A DNA stretch of 64,000 bases from Bauldia sp. (GTDB lineage Bacteria > Pseudomonadota > Alphaproteobacteria > Rhizobiales > Kaistiaceae). The notes below the pieces were generated by a model. The model was not told the origin of the DNA. It did not search any database and saw only the letters and a program-made list of their open reading frames with translations. The translations under genes were made by a program, and so were the position numbers. The DNA lies in contig JAHCJZ010000009.1 of NCBI GenBank assembly GCA_026126025.1, positions 1 to 64,000 on the forward strand, in the 5' to 3' direction. This document shows, one piece after another, positions 6,392 to 39,316 of this stretch (position 1 is its first letter; each line of letters begins with the position of its first letter).

Positions 6392-6467
6392 GCTCCCTTC
6401 GTCTAGCGGCCCAGGACGTCGCCCTCTCACGGCGAAAACAGGGGTTCGATTCCCCTAGGGAGCGCCA
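6392..6467 (+). tRNA. tRNA-Glu(CTC)
   Basis: The gene folds as a canonical cloverleaf. It has a 7-bp acceptor stem (GCTCCCT/AGGGAGC), anticodon stem TCGCC/GGCGA with loop CTCTCAC (anticodon CTC), T stem GGGGT/CCCCT with loop TCGATT, and encoded CCA. The integrase gene starts 19 bases beyond the CCA and points toward it, so the 3' half is the attachment site of the prophage. Confidence 0.97.
6435..6467. mobile_element. Probable attL (3' half of tRNA-Glu)
   Basis: Tyrosine integrases of this class usually recombine within the anticodon-to-3' portion of a tRNA. Here that portion is intact and directly abuts the integrase end. No second copy of the T-arm/acceptor sequence occurs in the rest of the window, so attR must lie beyond 64000. 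The exact core cannot be set without it. Confidence 0.65.
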
Positions 6468-6485
6468 CCGCCTTCCAGAAACCGT

Positions 6486-7550
6486 TCATTTCTGCGCCTT
6501 TCCGGTCCAGTTAGACACCACCCCCTGCCGAGGGTAGACACTCGACTGCTTTTCCACGGCCGCCTCGCTGAGGCGCTCTTGGTCCGCAGCCCGCGTGTAG
6601 CGCTCGACTTCTGCCAGCGTCTTGTGGCCGGTGACGGCCATGATCTCATGGACGGTGCAGCCTGCTTCCGCGAGCCGGCGCGCCGCCGCCTTGCGCAGCC
6701 CGTGGGCAACGCAGCGGTCCGGCAAGTCCGCGCGCCGGATCGCGGCCGACATGAAGTTGCCGAACCCCTTCACCGTGAAGGCTCGACCCCATTCCGTGAC
6801 CATGATCGCGATGTTATCCCGCGCGGCCGAAGCAAGCGCGTCCGACAGCTTCGGGTGGATGGCGATCGACAGTTTCTCTCCTGTCTTCTGCTGGACCACC
6901 CTGATCTTCGATCCGGCAATGTCCGACCAGATCATCCGGTGCACGTCGGAGCCGCGTTGGCCGGTGTAGAGGAGGAGGGCGAAGCCGAGACGCTGCTTGG
7001 AGCCGATCGGCCACCGAGTCTCGAATTGTGCGATCTCCTCCTCGGTCCAGGTGTGCCGCTCCTTCGACTTCCACGCGCGGGCGCCCTTTGTCGGGTCGCG
7101 GTCGATCATGCCGAGCGCCGTTGCGTAGTGGAGCAGCGTGCGGATGCGCTTGAGGAGCACCTGTGCTGCGCTCGGGGTTGCGTGCATCGCTCCAATGATC
7201 CGATCCACATGCTCGCGCCGTAATTGATCGACCCGCCTGCGCCCGTGGGCTGAGAGGAAGGAGTCGATCACCCGGCGATAGTTCCGCTGCGTGGTCGACG
7301 AGAGAGCGAGGAAGTTGGGGGACGCGAAATAGGCCCCGGCGAGGGCGTCGAATGTCCCGGCATTGACCGGCTGGCGCTTCACCGCCGCTGGGAATTCGAC
7401 GCTCAGGCACGCCGCATAAGCGTCCATGAACTCGGCCGAGCCGGGCTGGCCTGGCAGGACCGTTGTCTTGCCGTTGCGGCGGAAATAGTGCCGCGGTTTG
7501 CCGAGACGATCGACATAGCTCTTGACGTAGCGCAGGTTGACGAGCGCCAT
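6486..7550 (-). CDS. int: Phage integrase, tyrosine recombinase
   Basis: A protein of 354 residues. The N-terminal SAM-like/core-binding part (about 60-150) is followed by the catalytic domain with R199 in LLYTGQRGSDVHRM, the H283-x-x-R286 motif in HGLRKAAARRL, H309 in VTGHKT and the nucleophile Y318 in VERYTRAAD. All catalytic residues are present, so the enzyme should be active. It catalyses integration at tRNA-Glu. The ATG at 7550 overlaps the stop of the upstream gene (TGATG) and has the strong site GGAGGGG, so it is preferred over the in-frame ATG at 7565. Confidence 0.95.
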   Translation of the reverse strand: MALVNLRYVKSYVDRLGKPRHYFRRNGKTTVLPGQPGSAEFMDAYAACLSVEFPAAVKRQPVNAGTFDALAGAYFASPNFLALSSTTQRNYRRVIDSFLSAHGRRRVDQLRREHVDRIIGAMHATPSAAQVLLKRIRTLLHYATALGMIDRDPTKGARAWKSKERHTWTEEEIAQFETRWPIGSKQRLGFALLLYTGQRGSDVHRMIWSDIAGSKIRVVQQKTGEKLSIAIHPKLSDALASAARDNIAIMVTEWGRAFTVKGFGNFMSAAIRRADLPDRCVAHGLRKAAARRLAEAGCTVHEIMAVTGHKTLAEVERYTRAADQERLSEAAVEKQSSVYPRQGVVSNWTGKAQK

Positions 7551-7792
7551 CAGATCCCCTCCCATGTGTCCTCCTCGTCAGGGGTGTCGGATAGGGCGTC
7601 GATGGCAAGGTCGAGCTTGCGAATGTCCCACAACACACAGGCGTCGATGCGGAACGGCTTCGGCATCCGGCCGTCCGCCACCAGCTCGTCAAACTTGGTA
7701 GCGCTGATCCCGACATAGGCCGCCGCATCCTGCCGGCGCAGACCGCGGCGAGGTGCGAGGCGCATGGTGCCGGGATCGAGCGCGATGTTCAT
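7550..7792 (-). CDS. Excisionase-like HTH protein (AlpA/MerR-like)
   Basis: A protein of 80 residues with a winged-helix DNA-binding motif (LRRQDAAAYVGISATKFDELVADGRMPKPFRI), the pattern of AlpA/Xis-type directionality factors. The conserved RMPKP turn is visible. Its stop overlaps the integrase start, which fits a recombination directionality factor that bends attachment-site DNA and favours excision. It may also act as a regulator. Confidence 0.8.
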   Translation of the reverse strand: MNIALDPGTMRLAPRRGLRRQDAAAYVGISATKFDELVADGRMPKPFRIDACVLWDIRKLDLAIDALSDTPDEEDTWEGI

Positions 7793-7829: not shown

Positions 7830-9554
7830 TCACGAGAGCCACTCCGCGGCCGTCACCAAGCCCTTCGCCGGGTAGTCGATCAGCCCGAGCGTTCGCAGCG
7901 AGCCGAGGAGGTTTCCGAACCCGCCGCTGGTCGGGCTGTAGCCCGTCGCATCGCCAAGGGCCTCCCGCGTAATATCACCACGCGCGTCGAGCACCGCGCG
8001 CAGCACCCGCTGTTGCGGACCGCTCAGGATGGACATGGCACGATCGACAACGGATGTGCCGCCAGCCTCAGGCGCCGATGCGCGGCCAGTGTCGGTCAGC
8101 GAGACGAGGCCTGATGCCGGGTAGTCGATATGCCCTGCGGTCCGAAGCTGACCCAAGAGGTTCCCGAAGCCGCCTGATGTCGGGGAATAGCCCGCCACAA
8201 CGCCGACCTGGATCCGGGTCGGCCGATCGAACCCGAGGCCGGACCAGAAGGCCAGAGCCTCAATGACCTTCATCTGCGGGCCGGTGAGGTCGCCAGTCGG
8301 TTGCGGAATTGAAGCCGGTTTCGGCTTTGGTTGCGGAGCGGATCGCGCAACCGTTGGTCGGTGTCGGCTGGCAACGTCGTCAGCCATCGCGACGGTGAAC
8401 CCAGAAAAGCTGGACAGCAGGCGGCGCGCGTCACCAGCGGCGCTCTCCGCTCGCGCCAGAGCGTCGGCTAGGTCGCTCGCCAGAGCCGCCACAGCGCGGA
8501 GCGTCTTGTCCGCCCCATCCTCATGGCCGCGCTGGTAGCCGCGCTCCTCAGCCTCCGCGAGCGCTGCCGGGTCCGGGATATTCTTCGGAATATTTTGCGC
8601 GGCTTTCAGTTCCCGGGTGAGCCGGGCGATCTCGGCTTTCAGCACCCGCGGATCGTTCGCTTTCGCTTCCGCTTCGACCGTCGCCAGCCGGTCCTTCAAC
8701 GCCCCGAGGTCCAGTGCTTTCAGCAAGGCGGCCTTGACCTTCTCGCCGCGGGCGGGAGTGCGCGAGGAGTCGAACGTCGCCTTGACCGGAAATTGCTCGG
8801 TCGAGAGAACGCCCCGGCCGGGAACCCACACTACGGCGCGGCCGCGGTCCATCGCCGGCAGGGACGCGAGAATCGCCTTGCCCTGTTCCCGGTCGGCTTG
8901 CCCCTCGATCCAGTCACCAAGCGCTTTGCGGTCCTGCGAGGCGGTGAGCTTGAACGCGATCAGTCCGTCGACCTGACTGAGCACGTCCTTGTTGACGACG
9001 GCCGGCCGCTGCGTGATCAGCCACGGGATGAACCCGGCTACCCGGCCTCGCCGGACGATCGTCTCCATCATGCCGAGCAGTTTTGCCGGGTCCTGGTCGC
9101 GGTCGCGGATGACCTGTGGTGCCCACATGTCGGCTTCGTCGAACACGAGATGCAGCGGGTTCGGCCGCGCCCTCTGAGCCCGGTAGAGCGCCGTGAGGAA
9201 CGCCAGCATGAAGCGGCGCTCGGCGGCCTTGGTACCGAGCTGGGAGAGGTCGAGGATCGCGCTCTCCTTCATCCCCGCGACCGTCTCGCCGATGATCGCG
9301 CCGGCGTGTTCGTTGATGGTCAGGTCGCCATGCCGGCCACCGAAGATCACCACCTCGAAAGGCGAAGGCGTCGTGCCGTCAGAAAGGAGGCGTAGGCCGT
9401 ACCAGACGCCCAGCGGGTCGATGACGATGCAGCGGTTGCCCTTGCTCAGGACGCGCTCCAGCGCAGCGCCAGCGCCGTAGGTCTTTCCTGAGCCAGCCGT
9501 GCCGACGAAGCCGAGCCGGTCGTCGAGCGCCGCGTCGGGAATCGGATGTGTCAT
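7830..9554 (-). CDS. HerA/FtsK-type ATPase with tandem winged-helix repeats
   Basis: A protein of 574 residues. Walker A GTAGSGKT lies at 18-25 and Walker B LHLVFDEAD at about 134-142. A HerA-like sensor/arginine-finger segment follows (TQRPAVVNKDVLSQVDGLIA). A charged helical region covers about 280-400, and the C-terminus has two copies of one domain (GYSPTSGGFGNLLG occurs twice, about 75 residues apart, each leading to IDYPA-GLV). The repeats look like winged-helix DNA-binding domains. It is likely a hexameric DNA pump or helicase. Its place in the integration/recombination operon suggests DNA processing; defence or exclusion is an alternative. Confidence 0.75.
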   Translation of the reverse strand: MTHPIPDAALDDRLGFVGTAGSGKTYGAGAALERVLSKGNRCIVIDPLGVWYGLRLLSDGTTPSPFEVVIFGGRHGDLTINEHAGAIIGETVAGMKESAILDLSQLGTKAAERRFMLAFLTALYRAQRARPNPLHLVFDEADMWAPQVIRDRDQDPAKLLGMMETIVRRGRVAGFIPWLITQRPAVVNKDVLSQVDGLIAFKLTASQDRKALGDWIEGQADREQGKAILASLPAMDRGRAVVWVPGRGVLSTEQFPVKATFDSSRTPARGEKVKAALLKALDLGALKDRLATVEAEAKANDPRVLKAEIARLTRELKAAQNIPKNIPDPAALAEAEERGYQRGHEDGADKTLRAVAALASDLADALARAESAAGDARRLLSSFSGFTVAMADDVASRHRPTVARSAPQPKPKPASIPQPTGDLTGPQMKVIEALAFWSGLGFDRPTRIQVGVVAGYSPTSGGFGNLLGQLRTAGHIDYPASGLVSLTDTGRASAPEAGGTSVVDRAMSILSGPQQRVLRAVLDARGDITREALGDATGYSPTSGGFGNLLGSLRTLGLIDYPAKGLVTAAEWLS

Positions 9555-16106: not shown

Positions 16107-16841
16107 CTACTCCGCTGCGTCCGGCTGATCAGCCGCGGCGGCAGGCTGATCGCCCAGCGCGCCCTTGTCCGTCTCGACCAGCGTGCCGTAGCAGACCTCG
16201 CCCTGGACAAGCCGCTTGCACTCGACGCGGGTTTCCTCCGGCTTCGGCCGGCGCCACATGCACAGCCCGGCGAAGATGCGCAGTCGCGCGCTGAGGGTCG
16301 CCTTGCAGATGATCGACCAGCCGGCCTTAATGCCCTCGCCGGCCTCGATGCCCAAGCCGGCCTCGATGCCCGAGCCGGCCTCGATGCCCGTGCCGGCCTT
16401 AATGCCCTCGCCGGCCTTGATGCCCAAGCCGGCCTTAATGCCCTCGCCGGCCTTGATGCCCAAGCCGGCCTCGATGCCCGAGCCGGCCTCGATGCCCTCG
16501 CCGGCCTCGATGCCCCAGCCGGCCTTGATGCCCGAGCCGGCCTTGATGCCCAAGCCGGCCTCGATGCCCGAGCCGGCCTCGATGCCCCAGCCGGCCTCGA
16601 TGCCCGAGCCGGCCTCGATGCCCAAGCCGGCCTCGATGCCCGAGCCGGCCTCGATGCCCGTGCCGGCGAGGGCGCGGATGCGGCCCTTCGCGGCGACGCG
16701 CGCCTTGAAGCGGACCCAGCCGAGATCGGCGGCAATCTCGATGTGGCCGGCGAAGTCGGAGACATCGGTCGCGCCGACATAGGTGTTGTCGGCGTCGAGA
16801 TCGGCCTTGGTGATGGTGAGCGTGGGCAGTTCGTGGGTCAT
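16107..16841 (-). CDS. Hexapeptide-repeat phage protein
   Basis: A protein of 244 residues in three parts. The N-terminal domain (residues 1-62) is beta-rich (LPTLTITKADLDADNTYVGA ... FAGHIEIAADLGWVRF). Residues 63-176 are 19 consecutive copies of I-E/K-A-G-x-G, where x is S, L, W, E or T. The C-terminal domain has a CKAT...CMW...C pattern and an acidic tail. A strict six-residue period with Ile at one face and Gly at turns suggests a beta-solenoid. Similar repeats occur in phage proteins of unknown role. It lies between a small early gene and the methylase. Confidence 0.7.
   Translation of the reverse strand: MTHELPTLTITKADLDADNTYVGATDVSDFAGHIEIAADLGWVRFKARVAAKGRIRALAGTGIEAGSGIEAGLGIEAGSGIEAGWGIEAGSGIEAGLGIKAGSGIKAGWGIEAGEGIEAGSGIEAGLGIKAGEGIKAGLGIKAGEGIKAGTGIEAGSGIEAGLGIEAGEGIKAGWSIICKATLSARLRIFAGLCMWRRPKPEETRVECKRLVQGEVCYGTLVETDKGALGDQPAAAADQPDAAE
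16314..16655. repeat. 18-bp tandem repeat array (19 units)
   Basis: Units such as GCCGGCCTCGATGCCCGA on the plus strand repeat without spacers for 342 bp. They encode the I-E/K-A-G-x-G hexapeptides of the overlapping gene. Third-base and codon-choice differences between units are few, so the array may expand and contract by slippage or recombination. Confidence 0.9.
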
Positions 16842-17083
16842 AGCGGGGCTCCTTCGTAGCCATCGGTTTTGGCATCGGCCGGATCAGACAGCGCCTCCCG
16901 CAATGCGGTGAGAGCGACCGACCCCTCACCGAGGCCTGCGATGTCGCGGCGCTCCCATGCCTCCAGCACCGCCCGCGCTGCCGTCCGCAGCCGCTCGTGT
17001 GCAGCGGTGAGGTCTTGCAGGTCCGCGAACACCGGGTCGATCACCGGCGCGTCGGTGAGGTCGTAGTCGCGGTGTCCGGTCAC
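16838..17083 (-). CDS. Small phage protein, function unknown (81 residues)
   Basis: Starts MTGHRDYDLTDAPVIDPVFA and continues as helices (HERLRTAARAVLEAWERRDI). The stop overlaps the start of the hexapeptide-repeat gene (ATGA), and its own start overlaps the stop of the gene upstream. No motif is recognised. Confidence 0.6.
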   Translation of the reverse strand: MTGHRDYDLTDAPVIDPVFADLQDLTAAHERLRTAARAVLEAWERRDIAGLGEGSVALTALREALSDPADAKTDGYEGAPL

Positions 17084-17463
17084 GCGTCCACCTCGTGTCC
17101 GAGGCTGCGGTCAGCGTCGTACTCGTCGGCGTGGTAGTCCGCCCGCGCTGCGCGCTCCTCGGCCTCGGGCGACGGCGTCAGCCAGCCGAACAGATCGCGC
17201 TCGTCATAGCTACGGTCCGGGCCGACGAACCGGCCGTCCATCCGCTCGACCCGCACGATTCGCAATCCGTCCCGGGTGATGGCGTTAACGACCGTCCCGT
17301 CATTCGGGACGGACGCCATCGGCATGACGTGGGCGAGCGCGGCAAGGCGCTGGTTCGCCAGCATGGAGTCCAGCTTGGCGGCGGCAGCCCCGGCCGCATC
17401 GCCACCCGTCTCGCGGGCTTCAGCGAGGGAACCGGCAAAGGCGGCGGCGTTGGCGGGGTGCAT
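17080..17463 (-). CDS. First gene of the leftward early operon, function unknown
   Basis: A protein of 127 residues with a helical N-terminus and the core VNAITRDGLRIVRVERMDGR then SYDERDLFGWLTPSP. The tail is acidic. ATG 17463 is preferred over the ATG at 17496. It has the site GGAGG nine bases upstream, and the predicted transcription start from the promoter at 17499-17527 falls close to the earlier ATG. It is the promoter-proximal gene of the repressed leftward operon. Confidence 0.6.
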   Translation of the reverse strand: MHPANAAAFAGSLAEARETGGDAAGAAAAKLDSMLANQRLAALAHVMPMASVPNDGTVVNAITRDGLRIVRVERMDGRFVGPDRSYDERDLFGWLTPSPEAEERAARADYHADEYDADRSLGHEVDA

Positions 17464-17498: not shown

Positions 17499-17527
17499 CG
17501 GGTACACCTCGTACCCTATCACGTCAA
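17499..17527 (-). promoter_or_regulatory. Leftward early promoter PL with repressor operator
   Basis: The -35 element TTGACG (17527-17522) is followed by a 17-bp spacer and the -10 element TACCCG (17504-17499). A perfect 17-bp palindrome, GGGTAC-GAGGT-GTACCC, fills the space between them (17500-17516) and overlaps the -10. The same palindrome occurs at the Cro-side promoter. Binding of the prophage repressor here would block transcription of the integration/recombination operon. Confidence 0.75.
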
Positions 17528-17542
17528 GCGAAAAGATATGGA

Positions 17543-17571
17543 TTGTACCCTAGTCGGGTACGAAATATCCT
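17543..17571 (+). promoter_or_regulatory. Divergent promoter with inverted operator
   Basis: TTGTAC (17543-17548), a 17-bp spacer and TATCCT (17566-17571) form a promoter pointing right. The spacer contains GTACCC-TAGTC-GGGTAC (17545-17561), the same half-sites as the operator but in the outward arrangement. The predicted start of transcription (about 17578) coincides with the GTG at 17579, so the mRNA could be leaderless. Confidence 0.55.
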
Positions 17572-17578
17572 GTCGTGC

Positions 17579-18706
17579 GTGGTCGCCCTTTCTCTCCAGA
17601 GCATCGCTTCGGCCCTCGGCGGACGTGTCGTCCGCGGCAAAACCGAGCGCGTCGTAGCGCCGGGGCCGGGTCAGAAGCGCCGGGATCGGTCGCTGACGGT
17701 GTGGTTGAACGGGGACCGAATCGCAGCGCACAGTCATCGCGGCCTGCCGTGGCAGGACTGCCAGCGCTACGTCCTCGACCGATGCGGAGTGGCGCCGCGC
17801 GCCTGGTCGCGACGAAGAAAATTGCCGGTTGCGCCGGAGACGCGTCACCAGTTTTTCGGGGAGACGCTGCGGGTCTGCCGGCTGAGGCGGCGAATCACCC
17901 CGGCTCAATTCGCACTACTGGCGAACGATCTTCGGCTCGCCGGCGGCGAGGCGCGACTCGGGGTCTACGCCCAGGAGTTCGCGATGACGCCGACTGCCGT
18001 GGCGACCGCTCTCGCCGCAGAGCCGAGGCACTACACAGCGGACGACCGCGCAAAGATTCTCGCCGTCACCTATGCCGAGCGCCAGCAGCTCGGCCTGCGC
18101 AGAACCGGCGCGGTCGACGTCGACAAGGCAGGGCGGGAACGAGCCCGCCGAGACCGCTACAACGCCAAGCGAAGGGCTGCGCGACAGGCCGCTGCAGCAG
18201 GGCTGGCGTCAATAGATATTCCAAGTTCACAGGCGGTAGCAGTAGCTACCAAAACACCCCCTCCATCATCGGAGGATTCCACAACCTCAGAGCAAGAGAG
18301 GTGGTATGGCGCGCGCGAGAACAATTGTGGTCGGCAAGAACGGACCTCCGTGCCCTCGATGCGAGCGCCCGATGGAAATCAGGGAGCACGCGAAGATCAC
18401 GGACAAGCACCTCAGGCAGGCCGTCCACTACACCCGCTGGTACTGCTGCACGTCGGGGAAATGCCAGACCACGCTGGTCATGCCGCCGGAGTTTGCTGTT
18501 TGGCGGGACGGGAAGCCCCAAAGGCGCATCGACCATGGTCCGAGCGCGATGGATACACCGGAAGCCGCTGTCCGCCGCGTCCTCGAGGAGACGCCGCCGC
18601 TCACGCCGTCCCAGCGTGGCGACGGCGACCCGGCGAAGCTGCTGCACCAACTCGTCATGGCGGTCATCAACGCCGGCCAGGCGCACATCTTCGCCGGATG
18701 CCCTGA
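17579..18706 (+). CDS. Primase-N-domain-like phage protein; 3' end uncertain
   Basis: The N-terminus (IASALGGRVVRG, then VAPGPGQKRRDRSLTVWLNG, then HSHRGLPWQDCQRYV) matches the domain at the front of rhizobial phage primase/VirE-like proteins. A middle segment (ADDRAKILAVTYAERQQLGL, then DVDKAGRERARRDR) matches small proteins that often follow it. The frame stays open to 18706, but from about 18300 it overlaps the convincing zinc-ribbon gene by 400 bases. The last 130 codons are therefore probably not native sequence; the original stop may have been lost by mutation or frameshift. The GTG start directly follows the promoter. Confidence 0.5.
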   Translation: MVALSLQSIASALGGRVVRGKTERVVAPGPGQKRRDRSLTVWLNGDRIAAHSHRGLPWQDCQRYVLDRCGVAPRAWSRRRKLPVAPETRHQFFGETLRVCRLRRRITPAQFALLANDLRLAGGEARLGVYAQEFAMTPTAVATALAAEPRHYTADDRAKILAVTYAERQQLGLRRTGAVDVDKAGRERARRDRYNAKRRAARQAAAAGLASIDIPSSQAVAVATKTPPPSSEDSTTSEQERWYGARENNCGRQERTSVPSMRAPDGNQGAREDHGQAPQAGRPLHPLVLLHVGEMPDHAGHAAGVCCLAGREAPKAHRPWSERDGYTGSRCPPRPRGDAAAHAVPAWRRRPGEAAAPTRHGGHQRRPGAHLRRMP

Positions 18707-18872
18707 GGTGATTGCCCACTATGGCGGTCGCTTCCCCGACGCAGACGAGTTCGCCGCGGCGATCGGTATCTCGCGAGACCAGGTTCCGCTGCCCGATGGC
18801 CGCGTGCTGAGCTATGCGATCGCGGGGCCGGCGGTGGCGCGGCGAGTCGACTCACATGGTCAGATCGACTAG
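18306..18872 (+). CDS. Zinc-ribbon phage protein
   Basis: A protein of 188 residues with the site GAGGTGG before its ATG. A zinc ribbon is clear: CPRCERPM, then HLRQAVHYTRWYCCTSGKC, giving C-x2-C and C-C-x4-C knuckles. This is a form common in small proteins of alphaproteobacterial phages. The C-terminal half (AIGISRDQVPLPDGRVLSYA) is a separate small domain. It probably binds nucleic acid or a protein partner in the immunity region. The exact role is unknown. Confidence 0.65.
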   Translation: MARARTIVVGKNGPPCPRCERPMEIREHAKITDKHLRQAVHYTRWYCCTSGKCQTTLVMPPEFAVWRDGKPQRRIDHGPSAMDTPEAAVRRVLEETPPLTPSQRGDGDPAKLLHQLVMAVINAGQAHIFAGCPEVIAHYGGRFPDADEFAAAIGISRDQVPLPDGRVLSYAIAGPAVARRVDSHGQID

Positions 18873-19181
18873 CCGCCAGCGACCGCCGCTCGTGTATTCG
18901 ACATCCGCCTGATAGGCAGTCCGGATATTCGCGCCAAAGCCGTTCTGAGCATCGACATAGGCGCGCACGCGGAAAAGGCATCCGCCGCGGTGGGTCGACG
19001 ATACGCCGCTGGCCGTGATGTACGGGAACCGGGCCGTTGCCGGTGCGCGCAGCGCGTTCGTGACAAACCGCTGGCTCATCACGAACGCTTCGATTTCACC
19101 ATCCTCGGAGCAAACGTTGCGTTCGCCGCAGGCCGCGAGCGTGACGGCCAACACCGCAGCCGGCAACAGCATCCTCATCAT
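18852..19181 (-). CDS. Prophage lipoprotein, co-transcribed with the repressor
   Basis: A protein of 109 residues with a lipoprotein signal: Met-Met-Arg, a hydrophobic stretch (LLPAAVLAVTLAAC) and a lipobox ending at Cys18. The mature part has two further cysteines (NVCSEDGE and GGCLFRV) that could form a disulphide. Its start overlaps the stop of the repressor gene (ATGA), so it should be made in the lysogen. Lipoproteins in this position often act in superinfection exclusion or lysogenic conversion; that role here is inference. Confidence 0.75.
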   Translation of the reverse strand: MMRMLLPAAVLAVTLAACGERNVCSEDGEIEAFVMSQRFVTNALRAPATARFPYITASGVSSTHRGGCLFRVRAYVDAQNGFGANIRTAYQADVEYTSGGRWRLVDLTM

Positions 19182-20002
19182 CCGACCACCCCGAATCGCC
19201 GCACGACGCGGCCAAAAATCGCCATCTCCGACAGCCGCCGTTCCTTCGGGCTATGGCGCGGGTTGTCTGAGATCACCCGGATCAGCGCGTCCTCCTCCGA
19301 TCGCGGCGAAACCACCTCAAGCCGCTTCACCACCACTCCGCCGAACTCGTCGGCCAGCGCATAAAGCCCGTCGGGCGACGGCAGGGTGTGGCGGATGTCG
19401 ACGAAGACGAAGTCGCCCTCGGTCAGGGTATCGGCCATAGAATCGCCCTGCACCGGCAGGATTGCTACATCGCGGGCGCGGAGTCCGAGCGCGCCGAGAA
19501 CCTCGTCCGGCAGGCGCCAATAGCCGCGCACGACATCGGCTGAATAGGTGTGGCCGGACTTATGGGGGACGCCTTCCGCGTGCATCGTGACCCCGCCGCC
19601 GCCCAAACCGGCTGTGAGATCGAATTGGGGGATGCCGTCGGGAGGAATCCCGCGCCTGCCGGTCACACGCCCAACGGTGGCCTCCTCGTCTGAGACTCGG
19701 CGAGGGCCATATTCGTCAGGCATGATCGGCGCGTCGCCGCGCGCGTAGTAGAGCCAGTCCACGGTGGTATTGAACGCGATCGCATACTCCGCCGCGGTAT
19801 CAGCATCAAAGCCGTTTCGTCCGAGTTCGTGAGCCTTGTAGGTGTTGATGTTCCAGCTTGGGTGCCGGCGGATTACGTCTGTCGGCCCTTGATACCCTGC
19901 CGCCTTGCGGGCGAGGCGGAGCCGCCTGCCGCGCGCGAAGTTATCCGTTTCGCGGCGCTCCTGCTTCATGGGTACGGTTGGTACTCTGGGGGTCAGGTAC
20001 AT
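19178..20002 (-). CDS. Prophage repressor, LexA/CI-like (S24 peptidase type)
   Basis: A protein of 274 residues. An N-terminal helix-turn-helix (RLRLARKAAGYQGPTDVIRR ... INTYKAHELGRNGF) spans about residues 25-65. The C-terminal S24 domain has the nucleophile segment LPVQGDSMADTLTEGD and the lysine segment GVVVKRLEV, and an Ala-Gly-like cleavage region (FDLTAGLGGGG) precedes it. Cleavage under RecA control would induce the phage. ATG 20002 has the site GGGAAGG. A later ATG at 19969 lacks one but directly follows an operator. It should bind the palindromes at 17500 and 19970-20068. Confidence 0.88.
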   Translation of the reverse strand: MYLTPRVPTVPMKQERRETDNFARGRRLRLARKAAGYQGPTDVIRRHPSWNINTYKAHELGRNGFDADTAAEYAIAFNTTVDWLYYARGDAPIMPDEYGPRRVSDEEATVGRVTGRRGIPPDGIPQFDLTAGLGGGGVTMHAEGVPHKSGHTYSADVVRGYWRLPDEVLGALGLRARDVAILPVQGDSMADTLTEGDFVFVDIRHTLPSPDGLYALADEFGGVVVKRLEVVSPRSEEDALIRVISDNPRHSPKERRLSEMAIFGRVVRRFGVVG

Positions 20003-20068
20003 GTCATACCTTCCCGCTTGACTTTCGGGGGGTATCGGGCGTACCCAATGCGGGTATGTCACATACTC
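19970..20068. promoter_or_regulatory. Immunity operator region (four palindromic sites)
   Basis: Four 17-bp sites share the form GGGTAY-N5-RTACCC. They are 19970-19986 (GGGTAC-GGTTG-GTACTC), 19995-20011 (AGGTAC-ATGTC-ATACCT), 20030-20046 (GGGTAT-CGGGC-GTACCC) and 20052-20068 (GGGTAT-GTCAC-ATACTC). The third lies in the spacer and -10 of the rightward promoter, and the fourth covers the start codon of the Cro-like gene. The first two lie around the repressor start, which suggests autoregulation. Confidence 0.75.
20018..20047 (+). promoter_or_regulatory. Rightward early promoter PR
   Basis: TTGACT (20018-20023), an 18-bp spacer and TACCCA (20042-20047). The operator at 20030-20046 overlaps the spacer and -10, the same design as the leftward promoter. 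Transcription should begin about 20054, so the Cro-like mRNA starting with ATG at 20056 would be essentially leaderless. Confidence 0.65.
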
Positions 20069-39241: not shown

Positions 39242-39316
39242 GCGGGTGTGGGCCAGTGGTTGGTCGCCGGCCTTCCAAGCCGTGCCAGGCCGGTTCGATT
39301 CCGGCCGCCCGCTCCA
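39242..39316 (+). tRNA. Phage tRNA-Gly(TCC)
   Basis: A complete cloverleaf of 75 bases. The acceptor is GCGGGTG/CGCCCGC, D stem GGCC/GGTC, anticodon loop CTTCCAA (anticodon TCC, reading GGA/GGG), T stem GCCGG/CCGGC with loop TTCGATT, and an encoded CCA. There is one mismatch at the top of the anticodon stem (C27-T43). It sits in the leader of the late operon. Confidence 0.93.

Follow-up and report, generated by a model that had tools for sequence, protein, structure and literature searches.

A stretch of 64,000 nucleotides from Bauldia sp. (contig JAHCJZ010000009.1, positions 1 to 64,000; the window) carries a prophage in which the interval from 17.5 to 20.1 kb reads as a lambda-like CI/Cro immunity region, with palindromes of the form GGGTAY-N5-RTACCC as the putative operators of a CI-like repressor. 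We put the probability of this reading at about 0.92. It draws strong support from sequence comparison, since across related prophages the palindromes track the N-terminal DNA-binding domain of the repressor and not its C-terminal domain. Several hallmarks of a lambda-type region are found: divergent repressor and Cro genes whose start codons have three sites between them and a further one covering the start of cro, another group of operators at the leftward early promoter (17500, 17534, 17556), recombination functions to the left (exonuclease VIII, integrase) with replication functions to the right (primase, DnaB helicase), and a repressor predicted to combine a helix-turn-helix (HTH) domain with a LexA-like S24 domain, complete with Ser-Lys pair and Ala-Gly cleavage site. 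The elements are listed below; the palindromes are given without strand, and PL, PR and PRM denote the leftward early, rightward early and repressor promoters.

17500–17516: OL1, exact palindrome over the spacer and −10 of PL
17534–17550: OL2, 34 bp from OL1 (AGATATGGATTGTACCC), second-highest matrix score
17556–17572: OL3, weak operator, good in one half only (GGGTACGAA), tied seventh by matrix and not significant alone
17499–17527, minus strand: PL, −35 TTGACG (17527–17522), 17-bp spacer, −10 TACCCG (17504–17499)
19181–19969, minus strand: CI-like repressor, 263 amino acids (Pfam PF00717, 3.6e-11; PHROG 4, transcriptional repressor, 1.7e-22)
19970–19986: O3, abutting the repressor start codon and carrying the likely −10 of the repressor promoter
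19995–20011: O2, 35 bp from O1, top matrix score, carrying the likely −35 of the repressor promoter
19978–20007, minus strand: candidate PRM, −35 ATGACA (20007–20002), 18-bp spacer, −10 TACCAA (19983–19978)
20030–20046: O1, exact palindrome over the spacer and −10 of PR
20018–20047, plus strand: PR, −35 TTGACT (20018–20023), 18-bp spacer, −10 TACCCA (20042–20047), 8 nt before the cro ATG
20052–20068: additional operator 22 bp from O1, overlapping the cro start codon
20056–20289, plus strand: Cro-like protein, 77 amino acids, helix TAKAMRRRG (weak match to PHROG 9103, 0.004)

An earlier note on this DNA had described five palindromes, one in the leftward promoter and four around the repressor/Cro start, and all five are present, with zero to two mismatches. 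The exact form occurs twice in the window, at 17500 and 20030, and never in 100 shuffles. With at most two mismatches, nine matches are found against 2.56 expected and a maximum of seven in 100 shuffles; six of the nine fall within 17.5–20.1 kb (17500, 17534, 19970, 19995, 20030, 20052), with one mismatch each at 19970 and 20052 and two each at 19995 and 17534, and those at 8119, 38782 and 57079 are chance-like. When half-site spacings from 0 to 11 are compared, four matches reach 11/12 or more with N5 and one each with spacings 3 and 6, the others giving none; several good matches exist for N5 alone, which rules out the other spacings.

The note had also proposed a genome-wide scan with the consensus, holding that palindromes scattered equally elsewhere would speak against its reading. 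Throughout the genome (3,216,610 bases) the exact pattern occurs twice, both times in this region (reversed control, 0), and RGGTAY-N5-RTACCY three times, only at 17500, 19995 and 20030 (reversed control, 1), so that the strict forms are confined to this region of the 3.2-Mb genome. Exactly one mismatch gives two matches here and four elsewhere. Once up to two mismatches are allowed, the genome as a whole shows no excess (105 matches versus 136 in the reversed control), and for this reason the lone weak matches outside the cluster (38782, 8119, 57079) are to be ignored. The shuffles and the whole-genome counts together rule out a chance origin.

These counts also bear on the idea that a host regulator, LexA for example, recognises the palindromes, to which we give a negligible chance. 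Phage switches are sometimes tied to host regulators, which speaks for it; against it stand the restriction of RGGTAY-N5-RTACCY to this one place in the genome and the 12 related virus records (549 kb, 11 with matches), whose 28 strict sites are without exception located in the immunity region (reversed control, 0). A host-wide regulon of the LexA/SOS type was rejected, its sites being expected across the host genome, where the three found in 3.2 Mb are all here.

The first relative with the same sites, L017/L020, was found by searching by protein within the bacterial family of the window; next to the repressor start it has three sites spaced 25 and 35 bp and, on the far side, two more separated by 36 bp. 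L017/L020 carry the sites of L206, a Bauldia metagenome-assembled genome (MAG; JAGRKZ010000054.1). In the Bauldia prophage L020, at about 1874–1945, the Cro frame is broken by a stop and the operators are intact. The full-length repressor as query yields mainly relatives of the C-terminal domain with other operators (L003–L006), whereas the sites of L017 pointed to the N-terminal domain. An order-wide search with that domain added L022–L024, and an alignment of N-terminal domains fetched 19 virus and 34 genome loci, 28 of the latter named Rhizobium and the others Devosia, Nitratireductor, Shinella, the Bauldia MAG and a Rhizobiales isolate. Other routes gave little: a scan of viral contigs by DNA pattern (106 stretches) contains an HTH relative in L070 only, the first genome-contig scan and the viral scan with the N-terminal domain returned no relative, and neither a sequence search of the PDB (at 0.01) nor a plasmid search found anything.

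Dereplication at about 80% reduced 93 protein-found loci to 53. Outside this count are the window itself (L001, L002, L007, L021), L017 (same contig as L020), L070/L171 (same contig, found by DNA pattern), the other DNA-pattern finds among L051–L156, and loci with no N-terminal match (L005, L006, L009, L010, L012–L016, L018, L019). At least two sites within 150 bp around the repressor start are present in all 18 loci whose repressor bears the signature YK[AS][HY]E.GRN (49 sites) and in none of the 35 loci that lack it (2 sites in total; Fisher p about 1.5e-14). Among 119 permuted half-sites the near-identical GGGYAT reaches 38 sites, the next best 7 and the mean is 0.7, against 49 for GGGTAY.

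Within the repressor, the sites go with the HTH. Relatives of the C-terminal S24 domain (49–66% identical: L003–L006, L008–L010), with an HTH that is 32–36% identical or gives no match, have no cluster of sites, and HTH relatives with the signature (40–53% identical) have the cluster despite differing C-terminal domains. Four of these (L162, L166, L170, L172) combine the same HTH and operators with repressors of only 136–153 amino acids that have no S24 match, so that, on this reading, induction there cannot rest on self-cleavage. In the window protein the HTH is followed by a disordered linker and the S24 domain (A120-G121, S177, K215). The predicted recognition helix, INTYKAHE, spans residues 41–48, followed by GRNG at 50–53; since helix 3 of the AlphaFold model also covers 41–48 (mean predicted local distance difference test, pLDDT, of 98 over residues 41–50), K45 and H47 are placed on the recognition helix and R51-N52 just past its end.

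The Cro partner varies along with the repressor. The Cro of the window is 47–62% identical to eight Cro proteins that occupy the equivalent position in prophages sharing these operators, and its helix, AKAMRRR, recurs in all 14 signature loci with a recognised Cro. The sister clade with HENGQN repressors (HENSQN in one) has at the same place the palindrome CAACAY-N5-RTGTTG, at 11/12 or better in six of nine loci and at 10/12 in L044, with none in L027 and L049; the four of its loci in which a Cro is recognised have the helix A[SG]EM[KR]RR. The search pattern for Cro fixed the M but left the differing residues free. A CAACAY site of at least 11/12 is absent from the other 44 representatives; at 10/12, five have such sites at chance level (L030 twice; L032, L211, L042 and L046 once each), and 59 permuted half-sites give at most 3 sites versus 9 for CAACAY. 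Reciprocally, a GGGTAY site of at least 11/12 is found in 0/9 HENGQN loci versus 17/18 signature loci, and CAACAY in no signature locus. In relatives the Cro helix changes together with the operators, and Cro is expected on the same sites, probably docking on GGGTAY-N5-RTACCC as well. A further group of near-signature repressors (L025, L026, L031, L174, L175) is accompanied by single GTAC-N5-GTAC palindromes, perhaps a third specificity class.

Could Cro, or some other phage regulator, be the main user of the operators, with the CI-like repressor binding elsewhere? The AKAM helix, identical in 14/14, would fit such a scheme. The sites nevertheless follow the repressor signature in 18/18 loci, including L158, L160, L166 and L206, where no intact Cro is recognised, and in L173 an AKAM Cro stands beside a repressor with a changed helix (GKSSF) and no site of 10/12 or better. 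This alternative is highly improbable.

On the right arm, a site of 10–12/12 occupies the O1 place in 18/18 relatives. O3, O2 and O1 all reach at least 10/12, spaced 24–25 and 34–35 bp, in 12 of the 18; in the remaining six, two of the three are present at these positions and at that level. The weaker third sites (O2 of L160, L167, L168 and L209; O3 of L164 and L203, all below 10/12) can be placed at 24–25 and 34–37 bp when sought only within a few bases of the expected distances, with spacings of 36–37 uncertain because they rest on weak sites. The window has spacings of 25, 35 and 22 bp on the right and 34 and 22 bp on the left, and its operator at 20052 has a counterpart only in L166 among the relatives. 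The claim that the operator occupies the spacer and −10 of PR is supported by conservation: TTGAC lies 16–18 bp before the hexamer formed by the right half of O1 in 19/19 right arms (the window and 18/18 relatives), and that hexamer is of TACC type in 18/19 (17/18 relatives; AACCTT in L166). A start codon follows the −10 at 6–9 nt, opening a frame of at least 40 codons, in 18/19, the frame of L206 being shorter; given this distance, a leaderless cro mRNA is predicted.

The repressor's own promoter seems to be held by O2 and O3. An ATKACW −35 lies on the opposite strand of the O2 region in the window and 11/18 relatives, and a −10 resembling TATTTT, TATAAT or TATGAT lies in O3, ending 7 nt before the repressor ATG, in 16/18 (not L206 and L209); the window candidate ends 8 nt upstream, and its −10, TACCAA, is a poorer match than those of relatives. 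These hexamers, taken as the best of several gaps and spacers, are suggestions. The repressor and Cro mRNAs would both probably be leaderless. Lambda CI at OR2 activates PRM and binds cooperatively, with looping, and the general likeness to lambda invites the view that the repressor at O2 activates its own promoter in the same way. The geometry argues against CI-type activation: with the likely PRM −35 inside O2 and the −10 inside O3, polymerase would be blocked rather than helped. We regard such activation as unlikely, a case that fails if the real PRM lies elsewhere.

The left arm follows the same plan. Searched at 30–40 bp, an OL1–OL2 pair 34–37 bp apart is found on the far side of the repressor start in 14/18 relatives; three others have one site there and L209 has none. 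GTCAA, corresponding to the −35 of PL, lies between OL1 and OL2 in 13 of these 14 (GGCAA in L168), in keeping with the proposal that an operator covers the spacer and −10 of PL. On this pattern, each early −35 is predicted to be bracketed by two operators, with the operator half-site itself as the −10. The OL2 of the window reads AGATAT-GGATT-GTACCC, and its AGATAY left half recurs in OL2 of L169, L206, L207 and L208. Where seen, OL3 of relatives lies 23–29 bp beyond OL2 (L157, L163, L172), and a weaker OL3 occurs in some of them, with the left half GGGTACGAA (L157, L164) or AGGTACGAA (L160); the letters after OL2 are GGGTACGAATC in L157 and L164 and AGGTACGAATC in L160.

This bears on a sixth element, at 17545–17561, which had been read as the same half-sites in outward arrangement inside a third promoter. 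The letters, GTACCC-TAGTC-GGGTAC, are as described; they are better taken as the right half of OL2 and the left half of OL3 than as a single element, and the outward look is most simply a by-product of the adjacent pair. A distinct operator controlling a third promoter in its own way is quite improbable: both half-sites are exact (17545 GTACCC, 17556 GGGTAC) and a promoter, TTGTAC-17-TATCCT, can be drawn there, but the positions of OL2 and OL3 in relatives make the outward inner halves incidental, and a matrix that did not include it puts the OL2 of the window in second place. The third promoter itself is weak in the window, although TTGAC directly precedes the OL3 place in 4 of 14 left arms of relatives (L157, L160, L164, L169). 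After OL2 in L022, L024, L157 and L160 there follow TTGAC, then RGGTACGAATC, then a similar stretch (about AGTGATTGGGCGACC); these letters may perhaps mark a third early transcript.

A matrix built from the relatives' sites only places the seven window sites in the top seven positions, the seventh (17556) tied with 57079. The sites at 19995 (22.0) and 17534 (18.6) exceed the best of 40 Markov sequences.

Several points weigh against the immunity-region reading. By the same matrix, 17500 (15.7) and 20052 (13.2) do not reach the highest of the 40 Markov maxima (16.3), and the scores of 19970 (6.9), 20030 (6.0) and 17556 (5.3) are under the mean maximum (7.9); these five sites are supported by position and conservation. 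The signature was picked after the loci had been seen, and the search alignment started from loci that had stood out by their sites, though what it fetched was chosen by protein. L173, described above, is an exception to tight coupling of Cro and repressor. PL, PR and PRM of the window match sigma-70 promoters poorly, and a generic scan found none of them. The HTH of the repressor has no Pfam match of its own, the AlphaFold model is weak overall (predicted template-modelling score, pTM, 0.46; linker residues 86–150 with pLDDT below 50), and Foldseek template-modelling scores (TM-scores) to lambda repressor and LexA are 0.23–0.33 by query length.

In the lambda-like reading that we favour, a dimer of the CI-like repressor would bind sites of 17 bp, each consisting of two GGGTAY half-sites separated by 5 bp. 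From O1 and OL1 it would cover the −10 of PR and PL, and from O2 and OL2, which lie about 35 bp farther upstream, it would flank the −35 from the other side, so that the early promoters are bracketed. With the −35 and −10 of PRM overlapped by O2 and O3, the repressor at high level, and also Cro, would shut off the repressor promoter, a form of autorepression. DNA damage would lead to RecA-stimulated self-cleavage at the predicted site A120-G121 and free the promoters. More tentatively, and with somewhat less than even confidence, the repressor helix, the Cro helix and about six operators may form one exchangeable cassette, widespread in alphaproteobacterial prophages and existing in GGGTAY, CAACAY and perhaps GTAC-core versions, in which the half-site provides both early −10s, PRM lies wholly within O2–O3 and is subject to repression only, and both mRNAs are leaderless.

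Among known systems, lambda shares the divergent repressor and Cro genes, the operators between them, the second set at the leftward promoter and the LexA-like repressor; the first Foldseek matches of the window repressor are a lambda-186 hybrid repressor, LexA C-domains and lambda repressor, with low TM-scores. Lambda has three operators per arm, oL1–oL3 and oR1–oR3, spaced about 23–24 bp. The region described here differs in its GGGTAY half-site, in right-arm spacings of 24–25 and 34–35 bp (25, 35 and 22 in the window, with 34 and 22 on its left), in PRM hexamers apparently inside O2 and O3, and in a Cro mRNA that is probably leaderless too. Phage 16-3 of Rhizobium is likewise a temperate Rhizobiaceae phage and carries operators on both arms; these belong to the 434 type, unlike the GGGTAY half-site. 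It is not among the matches, and the organism tally of the collection searched, which was not checked for this genome, is without Rhizobium or Sinorhizobium phages. In a 2025 survey (PMC12429752), the C repressor of 16-3 has the operators oL1, oL2, oR1 and oR2, and phiLM21-like Sinorhizobium prophages are described as lacking operators identical to those of lambda or 16-3, the real ones being left open. Rhizobium phage RHph_I3_18, an isolated virus of the HENGQN clade, is an HTH relative with the same 17-bp geometry, differing in its CAACAY half-site and its helix STYRAHENGQN; upstream of its repressor gene one exact CAACAY-N5-RTGTTG and one 10/12 site are seen by eye, with no GGGTAY site of at least 10/12 in the 5.2 kb examined. 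Closest are the prophages of Rhizobium, Devosia, Nitratireductor, Shinella and the Bauldia MAG (L157–L209), which have the same operators, spacing and helix signature in 18 representatives and vary in the C-terminal domain, the four short repressors having no S24 match.

The surroundings are those of a prophage, with the integrase gene beside tRNA-Glu, exonuclease VIII and a DNA methyltransferase on the left, and primase, DnaB helicase, terminase and head genes on the right. The integrase gene and the adjoining tRNA-Glu, at 6392–7565, mark a probable attachment site. Other features are the following.

17080–17463, minus strand: first gene of the leftward operon, GGAGG before the ATG at 17463; methyltransferase, exonuclease VIII and integrase lie farther left
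17579–18706, plus strand: open frame beside OL3, no family match, start and end uncertain
39242–39316: tRNA-Gly (tcc), between the early and late prophage regions

Within a leftward frame of the PL operon, at 16319–16667, an 18-bp unit is repeated in tandem 19.4 times and encodes GIEAG-type repeats. The promoters at 38.5 and 39.15 kb have no operator above chance (nearest match 38782, at chance level), as the earlier note had said; its further step, that they are controlled differently, gains little from this, since the 28 strict sites of related viruses all lie in the immunity region. The 39.15-kb promoter precedes the tRNA-Gly gene, and separate control would therefore be natural.

No published report of a GGGTAY-N5-RTACCC operator was found in literature judged by titles and abstract openings. 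To our knowledge, operators have been mapped for few alphaproteobacterial phages. The region offers an apparently unreported putative operator sequence that is conserved in many prophages and has a spacing unlike that of lambda. For the whole group of prophages at once, the binding sequence, the promoter positions and the residues that read the sites are predicted, and the CAACAY sister group provides a built-in specificity swap for comparison. If the cassette reading is true, operator specificity, and hence immunity groups, would be readable from the repressor sequence, and the region raises the question of a switch that works without activation of the repressor promoter.

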